64,000 nt of DNA from Lysobacterales bacterium 66-474 (lineage in GTDB: Bacteria > Pseudomonadota > Gammaproteobacteria > Xanthomonadales > Rhodanobacteraceae), in the NCBI GenBank assembly GCA_001899805.1, contig MKWP01000007.1:62001-126000 (forward strand), given 5' to 3'. The position numbers and the translations under genes were made by a program. Below the pieces are notes generated by a model. It saw only the letters and a program-made list of their open reading frames with translations. It ran no database searches and was not told the DNA's origin. Positions 2,957 through 4,448 of the stretch are shown here, in pieces (position 1 is the stretch's first letter; the number at the start of each line of letters is the position of its first letter).

Positions 2957-3002
2957 CCTTCTCCCGCCTGCGGGAGAAGGTGCCCGCAGGGCGGATGAGG
3001 GT
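2957..3002. repeat. Palindromic intergenic repeat, family A (copy 1)
   Basis: Arms CCTTCTCCCG and CGGGAGAAGG surround a four-base loop, followed by a GCAGGGCGGATGAGGG-type tail. The same design (hairpin plus GGATGAGGGT tail) recurs about ten times in this window. Here it forms the outer left end of the inverted structure around the gene at 3398-3952. Confidence 0.85.
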
Positions 3003-3037
3003 GTCGCGCGCGCAGTGCGCTGTTTCTGCAAGAGCGC

Positions 3038-3300
3038 GACATCCATGTCTTGATTCCGCTCGCCTCCAAGGCGCGCGGGCTACTTTCGTTACGGCGAAAG
3101 TAGCCAAAGCCATTGCGCCGGGCATGACGGCTTAACAACATCCTGTTGTTTCGACTTCCCTGCGCTTCTCGCGCCAAGCGGGCCGGCGCGAACTCGCGCA
3201 TCCCTGCGCTCGAACATGCGCGCCTTGCTCCCGCTTGGCGCTGCGATGCTCGGCGTCATGCAACGGCGCGAGCCTCACTTCGACACGGCCATCCATGGCC
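3038..3300 (+). repeat. Structured repeat element D, left copy
   Basis: This copy of about 263 bp matches, in reverse orientation, 4077-4345. Conserved blocks include TGTCTTGATTCCGC, GCCGGCGCGAACTCG and ATGCTCGGCGTCATGCAACG. Several stems can form: GGCTACTTTCG (3078-3088) with CGAAAGTAGCC (3095-3105), AACAAC (3134-3139) with GTTGTT (3145-3150), GCCAAGCGGG (3173-3182) with CCCGCTTGGC (3230-3239), and GCGCA (3196-3200) with TGCGC (3205-3209). The stems differ from the other copy by paired changes. It ends with GGCCATCCATGGCC. Open frames through it are not credible genes. Confidence 0.8.
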
Positions 3301-3397
3301 TGCACTTGAAGCAGGGAGGGTGGCAACCCGCCTTCGGGTTCAACCGGCGGGATTCACTGCGTTCATCGCGCCCTACGCGCTAGCAGTAGTTCACGGT

Positions 3398-3952
3398 TCA
3401 ATGTTCGCGCTTTCGAGCCACGAGTTCTCTTCGCTTGAGTTGCGTGAATAAAGAGGAATTCACCACGGCGGCGAGGTGGCTCACTGCAGCGTCAAGCACT
3501 TCGAGCGAGAATTCGGCGTGCTTGCGGGTGATGCGTGAAGGTGATTGATCTTGCAGATATCGGGCCGGGTGGGCCAGGTTCCGAATCTGTCGCAGCACAT
3601 CTGCGTAGTCGCCGACCTTCGCCCTGCGGTCAGACCAGTCAGCGCCTTTTTCCAGAGCTCGAGGCAACCATCCCATTCCGCTTGAGGCGTTAAGCAAGTC
3701 GGACAAGTTCCAGTCGAGCAGGCGTTTGGCAGAGCCATTACGCTGAGCCGCAAAGCCGGCGTGTTCAACCTTGTTCGCATACAGGTGAACAATGGCGGTG
3801 AGAGCAGTTTCAAGAGCGGAACCAGCGACTACACAGCCTGCCAAGTATGCCTGCGCCTCGATACAACGGTGAGCTTCTCGGCGATACATGCGTGACAGGC
3901 GAAGAAGTTCGTTGAACTGCTTCTCGGTGATCGAATGCCAAGCTCGTGCCAT
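3398..3952 (-). CDS. Hypothetical HEPN-like helical protein
   Basis: This 184-residue protein is not recognised with certainty. It looks all-helical, with an AYLAGCVVAGSALETALTAI helix followed by a late QIRNLAHPARY segment. An R-N-x-x-H-P motif near the end of a helical domain is reminiscent of HEPN and DUF4145-like proteins, some of which are RNases in defence or toxin systems, but here spacing between R and H is only three residues. ATG 3952 is chosen because GGAG lies seven bases upstream; the frame is open back to 4030. Base composition is visibly less GC-rich than neighbouring genes, suggesting acquisition. It sits alone between two inverted copies of repeat D. Confidence 0.6.
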   Translation of the reverse strand: MARAWHSITEKQFNELLRLSRMYRREAHRCIEAQAYLAGCVVAGSALETALTAIVHLYANKVEHAGFAAQRNGSAKRLLDWNLSDLLNASSGMGWLPRALEKGADWSDRRAKVGDYADVLRQIRNLAHPARYLQDQSPSRITRKHAEFSLEVLDAAVSHLAAVVNSSLFTQLKRRELVARKREH

Positions 3953-4076
3953 GTAGATCTCCGAAAGTGTGTTGGTCTGGTGGGGTGGGCATTCCTGCCG
4001 GCGACTGACCATTGAAGTAGTTTCGCCCACTCGGTTAACCGTTGCACGGGTATCGCCTGTCTGATGGCCAGAGATA

Positions 4077-4345
4077 GGCCATGGATGGCCGTAGTCTGAG
4101 CGGAGCTTTTCCGCGCCGTTGCATGACGCCGAGCATTGCAGCCGATCGCGCGAGCAAGGCGCGCGTGTTCGATGCCATGGATGGCCGAGTTCGCGCCGGC
4201 GCGCGATCGGCGAGAAGCGCAGGGGAATCGAGCCGACACGACGTCGGCGAGATCGTCATGCTCGGCGCAGTGGTTTTGGTGACTTTTGCCGAAACAAAAG
4301 TCACCCGCGTGCCTTGGAGGCGCGCGGAATCAAGACAGGGATGTC
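4077..4345 (-). repeat. Structured repeat element D, right (inverted) copy
   Basis: Read on the minus strand this matches 3038-3300 with roughly three quarters identity by eye. The stems are preserved with changed bases: GGTGACTTTTG with CAAAAGTCACC (4278-4305), GCCGAC with GTCGGC (4232-4248), GCCGATCGCGC with GCGCGATCGGC (4141-4151 and 4201-4211), and GCCAT with ATGGC (4174-4185). Together with the left copy it flanks the 3398-3952 gene in inverted orientation. Confidence 0.8.
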
Positions 4346-4369
4346 GAAAGGATCTCGCAAGAGCGAACC

Positions 4370-4411
4370 CTCACCCGGCGCTGCGGACCACCCTCTCCCG
4401 AAGGGAGAGGG
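4370..4411. repeat. Palindromic intergenic repeat, family A (copy 2)
   Basis: CCCTCTCCC and GGGAGAGGG form a hairpin at 4391-4411, preceded by the ACCCTCACCCGGCGCTGCGG-type tail. It mirrors copy 1, so the outer ends of the whole 2957-4411 unit are matching palindromes in inverted orientation. Confidence 0.85.
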
Positions 4412-4448
4412 GATAAAGCCGGGTGCGGGCCGGCGATGGCATGACGAG

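Follow-up and report, generated by a model that had tools for sequence, protein, structure and literature searches.

The two inverted repeat copies in the window, by which we mean the whole 64,000-nucleotide stretch of DNA analysed here, are paired arms around an open reading frame (ORF) and members of a large dispersed family, which goes beyond the folded element of the original prediction. The element is real, strongly structured and dispersed. Its pairing is conserved despite changing stem letters, its unpaired linkers are fixed, neighbouring copies in the genus are inverted, and its sites differ between species. We see an even chance that the two structured, inverted arms and the centre between them form one copy of a dispersed mobile DNA element of the non-autonomous kind, a reading in which we infer both the mobility and the enzyme.

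Layout of the element in the window

The element sits between a cysM-like and a fabF-like gene (gene names assigned by eye), both of which converge on it (Table 1). Inverted copies had been predicted here and are found at this place, with 80% complementarity between 3138-3270 and 4112-4244 and 86% between 3037-3129 and 4254-4346. Both arms are of the left type, and no other arm kind is present in the window. Read from the outside to the inside, each arm consists of a small terminal hairpin, hairpins H1 and H2, a core domain and hairpin H10. The core domain is made up of an outer stem, hairpin H3 and a long arm, H4-H5, with H9 at its tip. It can be searched for with a covariance model, R1, of 161 positions; the R1 scores of arms A and B in Table 1 are those of copies that were among the sequences used to build the model, and the best score outside the element within the window is 15.7 bits. 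The frame of the cargo ORF is open further, to 4030.

Table 1. Positions of the element's parts in the window.
Feature	Position	Strand	Basis
Arm A, left-type, read inward on +	3037..3301	+	BLAST, repeat matches, alignment A1
Arm B, left-type, inverted	4076..4346	-	BLAST, repeat matches, alignment A1
Core multibranched domain, arm A	3110..3269	+	Covariance model R1, 178.8 bits
Core multibranched domain, arm B	4113..4273	-	Covariance model R1, 171.2 bits
Hairpin H2, arm A	3078..3105	+	Sequence; covarying pairs 31-57, 32-56
Hairpin H2, arm B	4278..4305	-	Sequence; covariation count
Hairpin H1, arm A	3056..3078	+	Repeat family D3; DNA folds
Hairpin H1, arm B	4305..4327	-	Repeat family D3; DNA folds
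Hairpin H9, arm A, outward-strand loop CAGGGATG (CANGGANG)	3196..3209	-	Sequence, motif count
Hairpin H9, arm B, outward-strand loop CATGGATG	4174..4185	+	Sequence, motif count
Hairpin H10, arm A, outward CATGGATG	3287..3300	-	Motif count
Hairpin H10, arm B, outward CATGGATG	4077..4090	+	Motif count
Terminal hairpin, arm A, outward GACATGGATGTC	3038..3049	-	Sequence
Terminal hairpin, arm B, GACAGGGATGTC	4334..4345	+	Sequence
Cargo ORF, 184 aa; GC 56.6%, GC3 58.9%	3398..3952	-	ORF list, family searches without match
Outer palindromic module, left	2957..3007	+	By eye
Outer palindromic module, right; resembles left module, inverted	4365..4412	-	By eye

Conserved pairing in the arms

The stem changes from which the original prediction was drawn are present in the sequence. 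The H2 stem, for example, reads GGCTACTTTCG/CGAAAGTAGCC in arm A (3078-3105) and GGTGACTTTTG/CAAAAGTCACC in arm B (4278-4305), with three double changes, and the same holds for the named change from GCGCCAAGCGGG/CCCGCTTGGCGC (3171-3182/3230-3241) to GCCGATCGCGCG/CGCGCGATCGGC (4141-4152/4200-4211). A fourth stem had been described as paired through swapped pairs; it is partly paired in copy B, with one outer position there unpaired. Folded as DNA, arms A and B reach z values of -7.0 and -6.8, and 0 of 200 dinucleotide shuffles were as good.

The covariation claimed from these two copies holds on many more, and also on class-wide relatives, whose alignment was fitted to the model. Alignment A1 contains 46 genus arms without large insertions, and alignment A2 contains 37 of these. 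Unpaired substitutions in the stems had been named as the observation that would speak against covariation, and standard pairs make up 96.5% of the 3169 cells in the 46 copies, compared with 81.7% in shuffles. Double-changed cells number 446, compared with 135.7 (sd 9.4) when shuffled and 23-69 when the partners are slid. RNAalifold on A1 gives 69 pairs, of which 42 have changed on both sides; a weaker measure, further pair types, was reached by 36 of 500 shuffles of A1. Significant covarying pairs were sought with our own R-scape-like tree null, in which substitutions are re-placed along a FastTree tree and, as in all tree nulls here, only columns with at most 30% gaps are kept. Nine of 30,135 column pairs passed at E ≤ 0.05, and eight of these nine are pairs of the structure. 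That so few of the 69 structure pairs of the genus arms (8) pass so strict a test may reflect the small number of repeat copies and recombination among them. The outer stem (helix 4) covaries too, though its sides lie about 130 columns apart. In 19 copies of the right arms, 44 of 88 pairs are double-changed and 97.4% are paired, a count made without a shuffled control.

Other origins of the conserved sequence were considered. A coding origin of the arms is disfavoured, though open frames overlap them, because insertions and substitutions in the arms keep pairing. A known RNA family was likewise set aside: Rfam gave 0 matches at the gathering score over the whole window, and sub-threshold matches only at L008, a copy elsewhere. 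One of the latter lies in the right arm of L008 (1355-1418) and is to Bacillaceae-1, at 29.6 bits against a threshold of 35.

Copies in the genome, genus, order and class

With arm A as the query, BLAST finds 34 matches in the element's own genome, and each of the 16 genus genomes has matches. The covariance model finds 27 core domains in the own genome and at least one core in 15 of the 16 genus genomes; genus core matches come to 201 in total, 150 of them listed. Within the own genome the arms occur in several forms: some loci combine a left arm with a dissimilar right arm, others have two left arms in inverted orientation, enclosing either a short centre (L003, L014) or an ORF (the window, L001, L006, L009), and at yet others (L004, L012, L021) BLAST detects no partner for the arm. 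By our own simple gene calls, the genes neighbouring 22 own-genome loci are convergent at 9, tandem at 12 and divergent at 1.

More distant relatives can be found with R1, which matched 34 of 200 genomes and 11 of 70 genera in a scan of the order, and 25 of 229 genomes and 22 of 196 genera in a scan of the class, the own genome being counted in both. Structured repeats of this kind are thus present in about one in ten sampled class genomes. Several of the scanned genomes hold many copies, and since at most 14 (order) or 12 (class) candidates were scored per genome, these copy counts are lower bounds. The 70 distant matches that were aligned score 26-103 bits. In this alignment, which leans to the model's structure because it was fitted to the model, 46 of 47 pairs are double-changed and 91.2% of cells are paired, against 60.0% when shuffled. 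Under the tree null, 19 of 37 testable structure pairs are significant and zero other pairs. The linkers of the distant cores are fixed, with AACTC[GA] in 57/57 and CTCxxACA in 56/57, letters that also helped the model find the cores.

A pattern scan of named genome contigs returned 48 stretches, of which 11 are labelled Rhodanobacter, Rhodanobacteraceae, Lysobacteraceae or Lysobacterales, two Pseudomonas (P. capsici and P. viridiflava) and one Alphaproteobacteria; the rest are from metagenome genomes labelled just Proteobacteria or Gammaproteobacteria. The two Pseudomonas loci (L073, L085) were found by the H2-to-core pattern and gave no core-model match at E ≤ 0.001, so the case for their kinship comes from that pattern and from inspection by eye. 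A link to viruses was rejected: a 20-letter core motif occurs in 20 viral contigs, but the covariance model matched one of the 20, and that partially, and a longer gapped pattern gave 0 matches against viral contigs.

Centres and cargo genes

The 150 listed genus cores include 15 pairs of neighbours no more than 3 kb apart, and all are (+,-), i.e., inverted. Their core-to-core spacing is bimodal, at 94-204 nt in 7 pairs and 713-1161 nt in 8. Each of the eight long centres (the window, L001, L006, L009, L024, L210, L211 and L212) holds one main ORF, picked by length, composition and eye, with overlapping frames in the same centres also open. L047 is a ninth cargo locus, the second arm of which is split. 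Among the distant loci there are 13 neighbour pairs, ten (+,-), two (-,+) and one tandem, and those at L150, L169 and L220 (genomes G334, G481 and G392) also contain an ORF. By eye, the L220 cargo resembles a secreted protein.

The cargo ORFs are of foreign composition, with a GC3 of 53-67% in the nine genus ORFs, compared with 82-89% in eight flanking genes at four own-genome loci. Two of them strongly match defence families and are, by this sequence similarity, candidate phage-defence genes: the L210 cargo has Mrr_cat and matches PDC-S02 (1.6e-91), and the L211 cargo has FRG and matches PDC-S15 (1.3e-39). A strong defence match is absent in the other seven of the nine. The L212 cargo has Mrr_N above the cut-off and found no match in a PADLOC search, and the L047 cargo has a weak RAMA/DUF4357 match, below Pfam cut-offs, and a weak PDC-S14 match (5.1e-8). 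For the five other genus cargo ORFs, including that of the window, there was no convincing family match. No transposase or recombinase was matched among the cargo ORFs put through family searches, which for the nine genus ORFs means Pfam.

The 184-aa protein of the window was matched in 5 of 398 order genomes including its own, the other matches being weak. It contains the letters RNLAHP, presumably reminiscent of HEPN proteins, a likeness without support from family or PDB searches. Its PDB search gave no convincing relative (best E 0.049, an antibody chain), and a structure prediction from the one sequence was poor, with a mean pLDDT of 56.1, and was set aside. At L079, an arm lies immediately downstream of an ORF of 651-671 aa with a weak, below-cut-off HATPase match, which is a possible large cargo.

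Variation at the insertion sites

Close relatives can be compared at the sites of the own-genome copies. The cysM-fabF site shows insertion polymorphism between close relatives. Both genes are in reach in 8 of the 15 other genus genomes, with a gap of 22-758 nt, and by BLAST the two-armed element lies between them in 0 of these 8, a pattern that does not distinguish gain from loss. L105 has one 69-nt arm match between cysM and fabF, and at L110 (G003) an arm adjoins fabF with other sequence beside it, where the contig ends. The L006 site could be resolved in 5 of the 15 other genomes, with gaps of 54-468 nt and no arm by BLAST. A solitary H1 hairpin was seen at this site in G004 (L181), consistent with deletion between two H1 copies.

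Eight others were resolved at the L009 site. The gap is 13-235 nt in six of these, including L204, which has a shortened arm; G014 (L195) has a DUF541-like gene with a partial arm, and G015 (L198) has an Mrr-like gene and no arms; both genes were named by eye. In the L204 arm the long arm H4-H5-H9 is missing and the outer stem runs into H3, as if by a fold-guided deletion. G006 (L202/L212) has two arms around a different cargo next to the right-hand flanking gene of the L009 site, but the left-hand flanking gene was not found at this locus. The flanks of empty and filled sites are not collinear, and neither a target-site duplication nor a clean footprint could be defined.

Proposed mechanism and its significance

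Integron integrases and Y1 transposases act on other hairpins in folded single-stranded DNA. In the mobile-element reading, each arm would form H1, H2 and the multibranched domain on a single strand, and a trans-acting enzyme, which we infer, would recognise the folded single-stranded DNA of the arms. The enzyme would move the element and thereby carry the gene in its centre, and recombination between arms of different copies may swap the cargo at a fixed site. For the window copy, the cargo would be the 184-aa protein without a family match, carried between the cysM-like and fabF-like genes. Against the mobile-element reading, the differences between species could be losses. A bolder version, possible although we would not count on it, is that of a class-wide mobile element of the Gammaproteobacteria, in which structured two-armed cassettes, recognised as folded single-stranded DNA, would carry foreign genes one at a time into and out of fixed sites, with phage-defence candidates among these genes, and in which the arms of one lineage would also have become RsmA-binding hairpin arrays.

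If the arms are recombination substrates, they would offer a route for single genes, including defence genes, outside integrons and islands, as well as a lead to a new enzyme acting on folded DNA. Should RsmA bind the GGA hairpins, the balance of a global regulator could be shifted by the dispersed sites, which we estimate at dozens or more per genome.

Pairing at the DNA or RNA level and rival explanations

The level at which pairing is maintained, for which the original prediction allowed either RNA structure or a cruciform DNA target, can be approached through G.T and A.C cells, counted over all pairs bar hairpin-closing ones. On the inward strand of the left arms there are 28 G.T and 45 A.C among 2939 cells, whereas RNase P RNA from 11 genus genomes (RNAalifold structure without pseudoknots) has 60 and 4 among 1069. 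Double-changed and one-side-changed cells stand at 446 to 26 in the left arms and 43 to 15 in RNase P RNA. The left arms lean to a mainly DNA-level constraint, because G.T is not above A.C, unlike in RNase P RNA. The right arms, all from copies outside the window and read outward, have 89 G.T and 14 A.C among 1515 cells, and the distant cores 137 and 47 among 2631, an excess of G.T that hints at an RNA role. Pairs with a G.T majority, three in the right arms and two in the distant cores, carry part of this excess; in Watson-Crick-majority pairs G.T to A.C is 34 to 14 in the right arms and 80 to 40 in the distant cores, and the ratio is 36 to 32 in those distant pairs where double changes reach 10% or more.

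An RNA role is central to one rival explanation, in which arms that are read through would present arrays of CsrA/RsmA-binding hairpins and the copies would either sequester the protein by titration or recruit it to neighbouring mRNAs at their 3' ends. We consider it doubtful. In its favour, the outward strand of 69 left arms contains 186 CANGGANG motifs, 132 of them in hairpins, against 2 on the inward strand and a shuffle mean of 8.7, and that of 21 right arms contains 63, against 1 inward and a shuffle mean of 2.45; these sets include arms from named contigs, and some overlapping loci may count twice. The free positions of CANGGANG vary and the fixed positions hardly do. Over 46 rows, H9 reads C45 A46 N G46 G46 A46 N G46, its A being fixed in all 46 though the partner varies (T34, C9, A3). 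PMC6849547 gives CANGGANG as the motif to which Rsm proteins bind and describes a tested site in P. putida cfcR that has CATGGATG as its core. One CsrA match is present in the own genome, genes are divergent at only 1 of the 22 own loci (our simple gene calls), and on the outward strand G.U exceeds A.C in the right arms (89 vs 14) and weakly in the left (45 vs 28). The same explanation has to accommodate an H3 that is CGA rather than GGA in 29 of the 46 rows, left-arm wobble pairs that are rare on either strand (about 1-1.5% of cells), and an Rfam RsmY score at L008 of 13.4 bits against a gathering score of 57. Moreover, of the 57 distant loci, which come from 30 genera, just 4 in 3 genera have a GGA-type H9 tip, so the tip is a lineage trait and not a family-defining function. 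CsrA binding as a family-wide function was dropped, most distant relatives being without it.

Two further explanations do without selection or without a two-armed unit. Templated switching, in which one side of a quasi-palindrome is corrected from the other during replication, could keep the stems paired without selection in what would otherwise be a passive repeat. In its favour, the left arms stay paired and show few G.T or A.C intermediates, and by eye whole stems look block-swapped. Correction confined to stems would, however, let loops drift, and here unpaired segments rank with the best-conserved parts (the two linkers above and the H9 GGA in 46/46); the covariation of the outer stem, across its roughly 130 columns, also counts against this explanation, which we judge improbable. 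Alternatively, two unrelated solo-repeat insertions might flank an accessory gene by chance at each cargo locus. The arms without a BLAST partner (L004, L012, L021) show that solitary arms exist, but all 15 close pairs of listed genus cores are inverted the same way round and their spacing is bimodal, and such coincidence is disfavoured already and very improbable.

Relation to known systems

REP units are short, 20-40 nt, and REP, BIME and REPIN repeats are intergenic, palindromic, high in copy number and often paired in inverted orientation. The present repeat shares these last four features and differs in having a multibranched domain of about 160 nt and, in some centres, one ORF. Integron attC sites, which belong to single-gene cassettes, recombine in the form of a folded single strand, and their stems vary. 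By these features, the folded arms with variable stems and the single-gene cassettes are similar, whereas the present cassettes are dispersed and have two inverted arms. Like CsrB and RsmX-Y-Z RNAs, the arms of the own lineage carry arrays of GGA hairpins matching CANGGANG. Unlike these RNAs, the element is a dispersed repeat on two opposite strands, without an Rfam gathering match in the window and with GGA tips missing from most of its distant relatives.

The closest likeness in layout is to passenger-gene cassettes. In mobile insertion cassettes and TIME-COMPs (PMC13367494, PMC4133298, PMC5444012), non-autonomous inverted repeats bracket passenger genes. As in a MITE or mobile insertion cassette, the window and the genus cargo loci have inverted terminal units with no transposase match between them, and the passenger genes and variable sites are shared too. 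By comparison, the present arms are long (about 265 nt) and conserve covarying structure and unpaired linkers, and target duplication is not visible, with empty and filled flanks not collinear. No description of the present repeat was found in the open PMC literature, where it was looked for mostly by topic and rarely by letters. It looks like an undescribed mobile cassette; the stem-loop repeat families of 40 genomes, including P. putida and P. aeruginosa, that PMC2267715 reports lie outside this comparison.

Modules beside, within and apart from the arms

Outermost palindromes of two kinds, CTCTCCC...GAGGGT and TCATTCCGGG...CCCGGAATC, flank the window copy, L001, L006, L009 and L110, and may be further modules of the element. 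At L010, L019, L047, L059 and L093, a module of about 75-90 nt, itself containing TCC/GGA-loop hairpins (CTCGCCACATCCCTGTGGCTCGCC...GGCAGTCCCTGCCG and variants), is placed within hairpin loops of the arms, in H1 at L059 and beside H9 elsewhere, as if it inserted into loops. Collections of plasmids and phages contained only 34-37-nt matches to H2, in Acinetobacter (4 and 2 records). At L117 and L118, both from Acinetobacter baumannii, this H2 module is identical to that of an arm and stands without the remaining arm, and at L117 it is situated between annotated genes.
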